Positions 32,436 to 36,443 of a stretch of DNA of 64,000 bases are shown piece after piece. The stretch comes from an archaeon. GTDB taxonomy: Archaea; Thermoproteota; Nitrososphaeria; Nitrososphaerales; Gagatemarchaeaceae. A model generated the notes under the pieces. It saw only the letters and a program-made list of their open reading frames with translations, was not told where the DNA came from and ran no database searches. Within the stretch, counting starts at the first letter, position 1. Every line of letters begins with the position of its first letter. The DNA lies in the NCBI GenBank assembly GCA_016432545.1, contig CP066694.1, positions 558,001-622,000 of the forward strand, given 5' to 3'. Made by a program: the position numbers and the translations under genes.

Positions 32436-34229
32436 CTAGAACCCGAACATCGGGTCCGAGGGGGACTTTATCCTCATGATCTCGTCCAGGGCCTCGCGCT
32501 CGTCCTCCGTGAGCGAACCCAGGAGCTTGGTCCTCAGGAGTCGGGCTTCGTGGCTCCGCGGGAGGGTGAAGATGGTGTCGTTCTCCTTGACCTGCCTTCC
32601 GAGGGTCGGCCCGTCGACGGAGATTGCTACCTTGTCCCCCATCTTCGCCTCGAGGATGCTCTTCCCCGAGTCCTGAATCTGTTCGACGGTCCCAAGCTCG
32701 ACGCCCTCGGCCGACATCAGCTTGACCTTGGGCCTGAGGCGCCCGGCGAGGATTTCCACCCCGAAGACGGCAGGGTCGTTGCGCCTGAAGAACGATCCAG
32801 GGAGGGCCTTCAGCTTGCACGGGCGGGTCAGGTTTGAGAGGGCCGCGCGCTCGTCCGTCTCCTTCTTCGCCACCGACCAGTTGACGTAGTTGTCGATGAC
32901 CTCGTAGATGATGCCCGAGACGAAGATCGGGACAGCGCCCACGAACTCCTTCGCTTCGGGGAGGACCTTGGCGTCGAACCCGAGGATCGCCCCGAGGTAC
33001 GGGTCGTGGTCGCCGACGACCTGGGCGTCCACGATGTCGTTCTTCGAGATGTCCCCGATGTCTGCCTGCCTGACGGGGACGCCCCTCTCCTCCAGCATCC
33101 TCAGGACCGCCTCGAGGCCGCCCACGCTGCCCGCCTTCACTATGACCCCCATGTTGTCGGTCCTGACCACGATGTTCGAGAGCTCCTTCTCCATCTCCGA
33201 CCTCAGGGCCTTGAACTGGCCGTCGGTCTTGAACGAGGCGACGGTGGTCCCGGCGACGACGCCTGCGAGGTCGACGCAGACCAGCTTGACCCCGGCCGCC
33301 GCGGTGACGGAGTCGACCTGGGTGAACCTGTCCCTCGGGTCGCGCATCTCGTCGAGGGGCTTGGGCATGAAGAGGCCCTTCACCTTCGACTTGAAGGCGC
33401 CGTCCTTCCTGACGAGTGCGATCGAGTCCCCTACTTTGAGCCTCCCCTCGGTGAGGATCACGTTCGCGGTCTCGCCGATTCCCACCTCCTCCTGCATCTC
33501 GAGTATGATCCCCCGGGCGCCCCTCGACTCCTCGGCCAGCTGGAGCTTTCCCTTCAGGAACTGCTGGGAGAGGCCGATGAGGACCGCGAGGAGTTCTGGG
33601 ATTCCCAGCTTGCTGCGCGCGGAGATGGGGACGATCGTGACCTGCTGCTTGAAGTCCTTGACCCTGTAGTAGGCGTCTGACTGGAAGCCCAGCCTCGAAA
33701 GGCCCCCGACGACGTTGTAGAGCCTCTCCTCCAGCTCGTCGTTCCAGGAGGGTGGCTGCTCCTTGAAGACTGGGAGGAGCGCGCCCTGGCTCCCCTTCTT
33801 CCACCCCACTATCATGTCGACCTTGTTCAGAGCCACGAGGAAGGGCACTTTCCGCTGCTTGAGGATGTCGATGCTCTCGAGGGTCTGGTTCTCGAGGCCC
33901 TTGAGGACGTCCACTACCACGATGGCAAAGTCCGCGGCCGAGCCCCCGCGGAGGCGCAGGTTGGAGAAGACGGCGTGCCCGGGCGTGTCAATCATCAGGA
34001 GCCCGGGGATCTCCAGCTCCCCCCCCGCAAGGTCGAGGAGGGGCCCGCAGATCTGCTTGAGCGTCTCCAGGGGGAAGAAGGACGCGCCTATCTCCTGAGT
34101 AATCCCGCCCACTTCGCGCGCCTGGACGGCTGTGCCCCTAAGTCCGTCAAGCAAAGTCGTTTTCCCGGCGTCAACGTGACCCAGGACGACTACTACGGGC
34201 TGCCGCAGGTGCTGCTTCGAATCTGGCAT
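32436..34229 (-). CDS. infB: Translation initiation factor aIF5B (IF2-like)
   Basis: 597 residues, the usual archaeal length. GTPase motifs: G1 GHVDAGKTT (Ala replaces the common His), switch I VGGITQEIGA, G3 DTPGH, G4 NKVD. Domains II, III and IV follow. It promotes subunit joining. No intein is present, although this gene hosts inteins in some archaea. Ndk lies 29 bp upstream on the same strand. Confidence 0.95.
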   Translation of the reverse strand: MPDSKQHLRQPVVVVLGHVDAGKTTLLDGLRGTAVQAREVGGITQEIGASFFPLETLKQICGPLLDLAGGELEIPGLLMIDTPGHAVFSNLRLRGGSAADFAIVVVDVLKGLENQTLESIDILKQRKVPFLVALNKVDMIVGWKKGSQGALLPVFKEQPPSWNDELEERLYNVVGGLSRLGFQSDAYYRVKDFKQQVTIVPISARSKLGIPELLAVLIGLSQQFLKGKLQLAEESRGARGIILEMQEEVGIGETANVILTEGRLKVGDSIALVRKDGAFKSKVKGLFMPKPLDEMRDPRDRFTQVDSVTAAAGVKLVCVDLAGVVAGTTVASFKTDGQFKALRSEMEKELSNIVVRTDNMGVIVKAGSVGGLEAVLRMLEERGVPVRQADIGDISKNDIVDAQVVGDHDPYLGAILGFDAKVLPEAKEFVGAVPIFVSGIIYEVIDNYVNWSVAKKETDERAALSNLTRPCKLKALPGSFFRRNDPAVFGVEILAGRLRPKVKLMSAEGVELGTVEQIQDSGKSILEAKMGDKVAISVDGPTLGRQVKENDTIFTLPRSHEARLLRTKLLGSLTEDEREALDEIMRIKSPSDPMFGF

Positions 34230-34258: not shown

Positions 34259-34678
34259 TCACCCGGCTGTCCCGAAGAAAGCGGCCTGCTCCTTGGAGAA
34301 GCTCTCTGCGGAGTCTGAGGCGTGGATGACGTTGTCGGTCAGGCCAAGGCCCAGGTCCCCACGGACCGTCCCGGCTGCAGCCTCCCAGCTCTTGGTCGCA
34401 CCGACCATGCGCCTCACAGTCGCGACCGCGTCCCGCCCCGAGAGGACGGCCCCCACGACAGGACCGGAGGAGATGAAGCTGACGAGCTCGCCGAAGAAGG
34501 GCTTGTCCTTGTGGACGCCGTAGAAGTTCTCCGCCTGAGACTTTGACATGGTCGTCATGTGAAGGCGCTTGATCAAGAAACCCTTGGCCTCGAACCTACC
34601 CAAGACTTCGCCGACCAATCCCCGCCTGACTGCGTCCGGCTTTACTACCACGAGTGTGTCTTCAGACCCAGAGCTCAC
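34259..34678 (-). CDS. ndk: Nucleoside diphosphate kinase
   Basis: 139 residues from a GTG that overlaps the L24e stop (GTGA). Family motifs: DTLVVVKPDAVRRGLVGEVL, then a Tyr-containing FYGVHKDKPFF, SGRDAVATVRRMVGATK, and the active His in DNVIHASDSAESF. It transfers phosphate between nucleoside tri- and diphosphates. The L24e-ndk-infB order is typical of archaea. Confidence 0.95.
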   Translation of the reverse strand: MSSGSEDTLVVVKPDAVRRGLVGEVLGRFEAKGFLIKRLHMTTMSKSQAENFYGVHKDKPFFGELVSFISSGPVVGAVLSGRDAVATVRRMVGATKSWEAAAGTVRGDLGLGLTDNVIHASDSAESFSKEQAAFFGTAG

Positions 34679-34866
34679 TGGCCCTTCTGCCTCCTCGCCC
34701 ACTTCAGTTTGCGAGAGTCCCTGCCAAGCTTGATGTCGTTGACCTTGCACTTGGAGGAGCAGTAGGAGCGGGTGGAGCCGTCGTTCTTCACGAAAAGGAT
34801 GCCGGAGCCGAGACGGACCTCTTTGCCGCAGAAAGCGCATCTCTTTGGAACGTACAATTCAAACAA
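34675..34866 (-). CDS. rpl24e: Ribosomal protein L24e
   Basis: 63 residues from a TTG start. Zinc-binding cysteines: CAFCG near the N-terminus and YCSSKC in the middle, followed by a basic end (RKLKWARRQKGQ). In most archaea it directly follows S28e; here 980 bp with an oppositely oriented endonuclease gene separate them, and L24e has its own TATA box (34903-34913) about 40 nt upstream. Confidence 0.95.
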   Translation of the reverse strand: MFELYVPKRCAFCGKEVRLGSGILFVKNDGSTRSYCSSKCKVNDIKLGRDSRKLKWARRQKGQ

Positions 34867-34902
34867 CCTACCCCGTGTTTCTTTTCAACCCCTTTGGGCG
34901 TT

Positions 34903-34913
34903 CATATAAAAAC
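34903..34913. promoter_or_regulatory. AT-rich TATA element, possibly bidirectional
   Basis: CATATAAAAAC on the forward strand, GTTTTTATATG on the reverse. On the reverse strand it is placed to give a transcript starting near 34882, about 16 nt before L24e. On the forward strand it could serve the LAGLIDADG gene with a leader of about 60 nt. It is the only strong TATA-like element between S28e and L24e. Confidence 0.55.
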
Positions 34914-34995
34914 TGTGAGAGGCCTAAGCGCCCAGACGAGTCTCACAATTTCGTCGTGCAGGGGCGTTAAGAATTCTCCTCTCTTCAGTCAACGA

Positions 34996-35724
34996 TTGGT
35001 AATAGAGCTAGATTCTACACTATACGACAAGCCTGCTGGGGTCCTCGTCGACACCAAGCTCGCAAGATTCGCAGGCCTGGCCTACGGAGATGGCTATCCG
35101 CAGTGGGGCGAAATCAGGGTCGTCACTTCGAACCAAGAATTCAAGGACTCGCTGGTCGACCTTGTGAAGCGAATTGCTCTGGAGAACAGGATTGGCTGGC
35201 GAGCGTACACGAGACCTCGAAACATATCTGACAACCCCCAACATACGGTTGCTCTGGATTCTACGCTCATAAGGCGAGCCTTCTTCGATGACATGATGCA
35301 GCCAAGGTATGACTCGATGCATTCTGTTGCGATGGAAGAGGATCTGGCGCCACACTTCCAGTCCGGAATCAGCGATGCCGAAGGAAGCCTACTTCCGCCT
35401 GTCCCAATCGAGTCACCCCACGGTAGGATTTTCGCGATGGTCAACTCGGACAGGCGGCTCCTGGGCATATCCAGACTCTCCTTGGTTTCCCAGATCAGGC
35501 TAGAGCCCAGTTCGGTGAGGACTCGACTGAGCAGCCACAGAGGACGCAAGCATGAAACTCACGGCGTGACCATCGTTACGAGGAAGAACTCCTACTTGAT
35601 TGAGATCCTCTCTGGAGGGAAGAAGAAATGGCTCGAAAGGGTCGGCACTTTGTTGAAGCATCCGCAGAAGTCAAGGGTCGCCGCGGATCTTCTGAGGACG
35701 TATGATCAAGGAGCAGGTAGATAG
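34996..35724 (+). CDS. LAGLIDADG homing endonuclease-like protein
   Basis: 242 residues from TTG 34996, the only plausible start near the first conserved block. Two LAGLIDADG-type helices are visible: FAGLAYGDGYPQ (about 25-36) and FQSGISDAEGS (121-131), each ending in the acidic catalytic residue (Asp, Glu), about 97 residues apart as expected for a monomeric two-domain enzyme. Basic residues lie in the C-terminal DNA-binding half (SSHRGRKHETHGVTIVTRKN). It is free-standing and inverted between S28e and L24e; no host gene is interrupted. Most ribosomal genes here are on the other strand. Confidence 0.82.
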   Translation: MVIELDSTLYDKPAGVLVDTKLARFAGLAYGDGYPQWGEIRVVTSNQEFKDSLVDLVKRIALENRIGWRAYTRPRNISDNPQHTVALDSTLIRRAFFDDMMQPRYDSMHSVAMEEDLAPHFQSGISDAEGSLLPPVPIESPHGRIFAMVNSDRRLLGISRLSLVSQIRLEPSSVRTRLSSHRGRKHETHGVTIVTRKNSYLIEILSGGKKKWLERVGTLLKHPQKSRVAADLLRTYDQGAGR

Positions 35725-35847
35725 CTAGTATTGAGACTTCGCGGAGACACCAAAACTGAAAATCAGCTTTTTGTCGTCTCTTGGGAGCCTTCCGGTCCTT
35801 GAAAGTCAGGATGAGGCCTATTCTAGCCTTAGATTAGCGAAATAAGC

Positions 35848-36066
35848 TCATTTCAGCTTCCGAGCTTCGCGTTCAGTTTCTCTTAAAACTAGCACGTCCG
35901 CGAGCCGAATGGGTCCTTTTACGTTCCTAGTGAGAATCCGGCCCTTCTCCTTCCCTTCCAGAATCTTGACCCTGACCTGAGTAATCTCCCCAGCGACCCC
36001 CGTCCTTCCGACGATCTGGACGACCTCAGCCGGGGTTAGGCTCTCGACTTCTTTCTTGCTGCTCAT
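35848..36066 (-). CDS. rps28e: Ribosomal protein S28e
   Basis: 72 residues. Family sequence: [40 protein letters not shown] and the conserved C-terminal [11 protein letters not shown]. Its ATG overlaps the L7ae stop (ATGA). The 120 bp after its stop hold T-rich sequence on this strand but no gene, then the end of the endonuclease gene. Confidence 0.96.
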
Positions 36067-36443
36067 GCGGCCTTGTTCAGCCTCGCCAGCTCCTGGGTCA
36101 CCTGCTCGAGGATCTGGGCTCCTTCGCCAGCTTCGATGACCGCTGCTGAGGCGGTCGAGACGTCAATCCCGATGGCTGGGCCTATCTGGTCCTTGGAGGG
36201 AACGAACACGTAGGGAATCTTGCGCTCTTCGCAGAGTATCGGAAGGTGGGCAACGACCTCGGGCGGCGTGACGTCCTCGGCGATGACTACCAGCTTAGCG
36301 AGCCCGCGCTCGATTGCCTTCGTGGCCTCGTTTGTCCCTCTCCGAACCTTTCCGGAACGAGATGCCTGTCGAAGGACCTCGTAGGCTGCCTCAGAGACTT
36401 CCTTAGGGGTGTCGACCTTGATGTAGTACGGCTTGGGGGTCAT
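36063..36443 (-). CDS. rpl7ae: Ribosomal protein L7ae
   Basis: 126 residues. Kink-turn-binding signature [20 protein letters not shown], then [20 protein letters not shown] and [18 protein letters not shown]. It binds K-turns in rRNA and is also a core protein of archaeal box C/D, H/ACA and RNase P RNPs. A TATA-like TTTATCTA (36480-36488) is 37-45 nt upstream. First gene of the L7ae-S28e unit. Confidence 0.96.

Follow-up and report, generated by a model that had tools for sequence, protein, structure and literature searches.

A free-standing LAGLIDADG gene between S28e and L24e in a soil archaeon: a probable homing endonuclease at a recurrent landing site

The gap between the ribosomal protein genes S28e and L24e in a soil archaeon of the Gagatemarchaeaceae, a family of the thaumarchaeal group I.1c (PMC10640624), holds a gene for a two-motif LAGLIDADG protein, here called LAG242, which is probably an intact free-standing homing endonuclease that lives by intronless homing outside essential genes. 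The S28e-L24e junction is a recurrent landing site for LAGLIDADG genes, since one is found there in 15 of the 39 assessable family genomes, LAG242 in three of them and a family of about 420 residues in the other 12.

The locus and its protein

The window, by which we mean the whole stretch of 64,000 nucleotides analysed (G000:C1:558001-622000), lies in a closed genome of 1.504 Mb. The gene order L7Ae-S28e-[insert]-L24e-Ndk-aIF5B is present in it, and the genes were found where the initial annotation had put them, with the insert reading backwards. In window coordinates the features are:

36063-36443, minus strand: L7Ae ribosomal protein gene (clear Pfam match)
35848-36066, minus strand: S28e ribosomal protein gene, intact and lacking a C-terminal tail in the window genome (clear Pfam match)
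35725-35847: spacer of 123 bp separating the stop codons of the convergent genes LAG242 and S28e
34996-35724, plus strand: LAG242, gene of the two-motif LAGLIDADG protein, 242 aa, TTG start, TAG stop
35356-35385, plus strand: LAGLIDADG motif 2 (FQSGISDAEG, acid E129), from the alignment; model helix 118-129
35059-35094, plus strand: LAGLIDADG motif 1 (LARFAGLAYGDG, acid D32), from the alignment; model helix 20-32
34903-34910, minus strand: TATA-like box of L24e, reading TTTATATG on the minus strand; also an AT-rich box towards LAG242
34675-34866, minus strand: L24e ribosomal protein gene, intact, TTG start (clear Pfam match)
34259-34690, minus strand: nucleoside diphosphate kinase gene, Ndk (clear Pfam match; the bounds are those of the open reading frame and the start codon is provisional)
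32436-34229, minus strand: aIF5B gene, with no intein in the window genome (named by sequence and conserved place, not by family search)

The 981-bp interval between S28e and L24e contains one open reading frame on the opposite strand, that of LAG242, which meets S28e tail-to-tail (convergent) and diverges from L24e. The frame is open from 34654 and ends with the stop at 35722-35724, and its TTG start at 34996 was set by alignment to the orthologue in G016, which begins with GTG at the same residue. LAG242 is part of no intron or intein and fills a gap whose flanking conserved genes are both intact, and the claim that it is free-standing and splits no host gene is thus borne out. Neither an Rfam match nor a tRNA was found in the insert, and a group I intron or another RNA element was rejected on the first count; a transposon was rejected as well, there being no direct or inverted repeats of note around the insert. 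It is very improbable that the gene was brought by rearrangement or transposition instead of homing. The G+C of the insert, about 0.54 against 0.62-0.65 in the surroundings, could be taken that way, but there is no target-site duplication, there are no terminal repeats, and the order of the flanking genes is identical to that of relatives with an empty junction.

The initial annotation had read two motifs with intact acidic residues, and the alignment agrees, D32 being the acid of motif 1 (GLAYGDG) and E129 that of motif 2 (GISDAEG); across the 18 aligned proteins D127 and E129 do not vary. Against Pfam PF14528 (LAGLIDADG_3) the protein scores 17.1 of the 22.5 bits of the curated cut-off, over motif 1 only, and it is therefore not filed in that family; its membership of the superfamily is backed by profile and fold. 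In hhalign comparison with free-standing archaeal LAGLIDADG proteins it is matched at 96% probability (E 2.4e-9) with both motifs covered, and the AlphaFold2 model, built on 18 aligned sequences, is a confident one (pLDDT 91.2, pTM 0.88), predicting the alpha-beta-beta-alpha-beta-beta-alpha saddle fold in tandem, as in a monomeric LAGLIDADG enzyme. The profile match over both motifs and the confident fold show that the LAGLIDADG assignment is no chance motif match. The 17 Foldseek matches of the model with E<=0.001 comprise homing endonucleases, which rank at the top, as well as inteins and a maturase, and in VIA-align the first rank goes to I-DmoI (Z 18.0, rmsd 2.5, 171 aligned). Membership of the LAGLIDADG homing endonuclease superfamily is accordingly supported by motifs and modelled fold, and the homing endonuclease proposed for the gene is supported as regards its fold. 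No sequence match was found in the PDB, and assignments of LAG242 to an NCBIfam family, to a PHROG family (best E 0.23) and to the defence genes were all rejected.

I-DmoI, an archaeal enzyme encoded in an intron of the 23S rRNA, is likewise a monomer with two LAGLIDADG motifs and acids in both, and it is the best structural match to LAG242, over 171 residues. The identity between them is 16-18%, and LAG242 differs in standing free between two protein genes. Nearer at hand are HTH-LAGLIDADG proteins of the same archaeal family (L004, L005, L197), which are homologous to LAG242 over both LAGLIDADG domains and have an N-terminal HTH; LAG242 lacks it and is the sole one seen at S28e. Free-standing genes of the HTH type form pairs across two species (L251/L266, L254/L259 and L265/L267), each pair lying next to one shared host gene; the hosts are, as named by sequence, superoxide dismutase, H+-pyrophosphatase and diphthine synthase.

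A rather unlikely alternative is that LAG242 has been domesticated as a regulator, which would bind the divergent promoter it shares with L24e and tune L24e-ndk-aIF5B; the regulator WhiA likewise derives from a LAGLIDADG fold. The two genes are indeed divergent around a shared AT-rich promoter region, LAG242 has been held by purifying selection over a saturated synonymous divergence, and WhiA / DUF199 proteins share its fold and are found among the structural matches (Z 15.1 for WhiA; 15.1 and 13.6 in the VIA-align comparison). I-DmoI scores higher, however, and whereas WhiA, with its C-terminal HTH, is no longer catalytic, LAG242 has kept both motif acids and gives no Pfam match to an HTH domain, all its 242 residues being taken up by the two LAGLIDADG domains. 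The gene is moreover absent in 25 of 28 assessable congeners, which have not lost L24e. For this copy a homing endonuclease is favoured over another role.

Occupancy of the S28e-L24e junction

The search set was 400 genomes of the order, including 31 members of the genus and 15 other family genomes. Orthologues of LAG242 were found in three genomes of one genus, the window genome (G000), G016 and G026, in each case at the S28e-L24e junction and in identical orientation, the contig of G026 ending within the gene; a match in G019 (E 1.6e-4) belongs to another LAGLIDADG gene and was rejected as an orthologue. The junction could be read in 28 of the 31 genus members (all but G004, G009 and G010). 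Three hold LAG242, three a LAGLIDADG gene of about 420 aa followed by a VWA/tubulin-like cassette, 14 the cassette alone and eight a short gap, so that LAG242 varies in presence and absence at one orthologous site (3 of 28 assessable congeners), with short-gap relatives at hand. Among the other family genomes, 11 of 15 were readable (not G032, G035, G038 and G039), and nine of them have the 420-aa gene and two, G034 and G036, have none. The copy in G031 is frameshifted and that in G042, where the contig does not include S28e, is fragmented, as is to be expected of decaying homing genes. Further ORFs lie in the gap in g7. Outside the family, five of the six junctions read in the order measure no more than 52 bp, and the sixth, in G061, is about 2 kb with an acyl-ligase-like ORF. 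The cassette, 3.7 kb long, consists of a VWA protein, a GTPase of the tubulin/FtsZ family and a 311-aa protein of unknown nature, and 17 genus members have it at the junction, 14 of them alone and three with a LAGLIDADG gene (loci L101, L104, L105, L109 and others). The window genome yielded no tubulin-like match.

Such cargo, the cassette in 17 genomes, the ORFs of g7 and the acyl-ligase-like ORF of G061, is what speaks for a second alternative, according to which the operon was broken long ago, L24e gained a promoter and any insert survives in the gap, so that the site reflects tolerance and not target specificity. We consider this unlikely. Two LAGLIDADG families lie directly behind S28e, both convergent with it, and the second does likewise at EF-1alpha and at a radical-SAM gene, where no such cassette occurs in what was read.

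The TATA box of L24e, which had been taken as a consequence of the insertion, is real, but it is not specific to the insert: a TATA-like box stands at the same distance in relatives with a short gap and no LAGLIDADG gene (G002, G003, G011, G014, G020, G021), and thus the insert did not create it. It is absent in G025, G034 and G006, with gaps of 3 to 70 bp.

It had also been proposed to define the cut site and the ends of the insert from empty relatives. The comparison was made, and in the three LAG242 loci the first 25 bp or so behind the S28e stop can be aligned; past that stop the DNA of occupied sites does not align with that of empty ones, and no conserved target spanning the insertion point can be defined.

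S28e itself is longer in some relatives. In 14 family genomes (G001, G006, G010, G014, G018, G019, G023, G027, G031, G035, G037, G040, G044 and G045) it is extended in frame by a transmembrane-like C-terminal tail of 18-24 strongly hydrophobic residues with a mean Kyte-Doolittle value of 1.75 to 2.56, the tails of G010 and G019 being identical; the 3' ends are found at loci L090, L091, L092, L115, L118, L120, L121 and others. None of 25 outgroup genomes read has the tail (G049 and G058 show a shift of 2-3 residues only), nor have the three LAG242 genomes or two junctions of 3-7 bp, and G033 has an in-frame relic of it behind a stop codon. Synonymous change in the tail exceeds expectation in seven overlapping pairwise comparisons, with p of 0.018, 0.027, 0.037 and 0.043 in four of them (<0.05) and 0.055, 0.11 and 0.16 in the others. 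The tail is independent of the endonuclease gene, since G006, G014, G019 and G023 are tailed and lack the gene and G041 and G043 have the gene and no tail. A tailed S28e, if expressed, would mean that small ribosomal subunits could be anchored in the membrane.

The 420-residue family and the age of the occupancy

The family of about 420 aa was found in the Gagatemarchaeaceae only, in 19 of the 400 order genomes. Counted at E<=1e-8 it has 38 distinct loci, which include related copies and are not independent events: 12 behind S28e, 11 behind EF-1alpha, seven behind a radical-SAM enzyme and eight elsewhere or unplaced. The three sites thus account for 30 of the 38 loci; the neighbour is on the contig in 29 cases and is convergent in all 29, with three of the 30 copies lying about 0.9 to 3.4 kb off it (G041 and G045 at EF-1alpha, G044 at the radical-SAM gene). 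At least two subfamilies have reached EF-1alpha, the copy in G023 being only 29-32% identical to the others, and in G003 the EF-1alpha site is cleanly empty: the gene that trails the LAGLIDADG gene in the window genome follows there after 186 bp. The window genome has LAGLIDADG genes at all three sites, and its S28e site holds LAG242 and not the 420-aa family. At EF-1alpha its gene (L123:3268-4608, minus strand, near 176803 of G000:C1) is convergent at 12 bp, and at the radical-SAM gene another one (L122:3328-4551, plus strand, near 786339 of G000:C1) is convergent at 108 bp, both being of the 420-aa superfamily. That LAG242 might be a shortened member of this family was rejected, as hhalign found no homology in direct comparison; the core of the family matches an alignment that includes LAG242 at 82-89% probability, a remote kinship within the superfamily only. 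A smaller LAGLIDADG subclass is located near tRNA-Leu genes (L146, L148, L150). In several relatives, and not in the window genome, aIF5B is split near residue 27, at the P-loop, by an insert of about 1.5 kb (L036, L067); gaps at the same place occur in G005, G008, G013, G016, G023, G041 and G044, and in G033 and G031 the insert is intein-like by sequence.

LAG242 is 73% identical between G000 and G026 and 57-58% between G000 and G016, where GltX has 75% and 67% respectively. Between G000 and G016 pN is 0.29 and pS 0.75, with synonymous sites near saturation, and LAG242 is under strong purifying selection. The initial annotation had taken the intact acids to suggest a recent arrival, which is not supported: pN well below pS and divergent orthologues at the same site (58% in G016, 73% in G026) speak against a newcomer and against a dead relic. 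Its order of divergence, with G016 outside G000 and G026, matches the species tree, as vertical descent would make it do, and this counts against homing; persistence and purifying selection would also fit a host function.

The carriers are not a clade, however. In the species tree, which was made with no distant outgroups and with IMP dehydrogenase added (a tree rooted by an outgroup misplaced G026), G016 and G027 are sisters (support 0.92), G027 has the 420-aa family, and the flanks of G016 are like those of G027, with 95% identity in L24e and 98% in L7Ae against 88% and 92% to G000. LAG242 would thus be either ancestral and lost several times, or have entered more than once, and either way one site has changed its occupant. 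The gene tree of the 420-aa family broadly follows the genera, which makes its presence at S28e old, with some exchange: in this gene G018 and G027 are the closest pair (70%), whereas in GltX they share 76% and G001 and G027 share 81%. LAGLIDADG occupancy of the junction goes back deep into the family. An arrangement that is ancient and fixed in all relatives is found only as regards its age, since the occupancy is patchy, shared by two families, and interrupted by empty and frameshifted sites.

A candidate mechanism and its meaning

If LAG242 is a homing endonuclease, the cleavage and the mobility that we infer would proceed as follows. A monomer with two LAGLIDADG half-sites, similar to I-DmoI by its model, would cut S28e-L24e alleles that lack the gene, most likely in the region of the conserved S28e 3' end or close by, and repair by homologous recombination from a carrier would copy LAG242 in directly behind the S28e stop. 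Landing there would spare the essential gene, and transcription of L24e-ndk-aIF5B would be kept up by the promoter already present upstream of L24e. Collections of viral, phage and plasmid sequences yielded no relatives of LAG242, which leaves it with no visible vector, and phage or plasmid cargo was rejected, there being no tblastn match and no relatives on viral contigs.

The free-standing seg and mob genes of phage T4 are alike in occupying intergenic gaps between conserved genes, and the seg genes are described as a case of intronless homing (PMC2988022). Since in T4 the gene and the cut are hundreds of bases or more apart (PMC2988022), the cut site of LAG242 need not coincide with its insertion point. 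The T4 enzymes are of the GIY-YIG or HNH type, with cleavage and mobility shown, whereas LAG242 is a LAGLIDADG protein of an archaeal chromosome, known here from sequence and model. We found no report of LAGLIDADG genes at the S28e-L24e junction or of a tailed S28e in a literature search that covered subscription journals little.

As a more speculative thought, which we put forward tentatively, there might be in the Gagatemarchaeaceae a guild of LAGLIDADG endonucleases specialised on the 3' ends of highly conserved genes (S28e, EF-1alpha, the radical-SAM gene, and for a smaller subclass the vicinity of tRNA-Leu), placed tail-to-tail behind the stop, with two families sharing the S28e site, and with a traffic that might also have rewritten the C terminus of S28e into a transmembrane-like tail, whose reading frame in many cases reaches or enters the endonuclease gene.

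The best-studied free-standing homing endonucleases are those of phages. LAG242 is a case of persistence next to essential translation genes with neither intron nor intein, and the archaeal site gives natural experiments, in that it is found occupied, empty, with a decayed copy, or taken over by a second family. Such a site would let the insertion point, the cut site and the cost to the host be tested.
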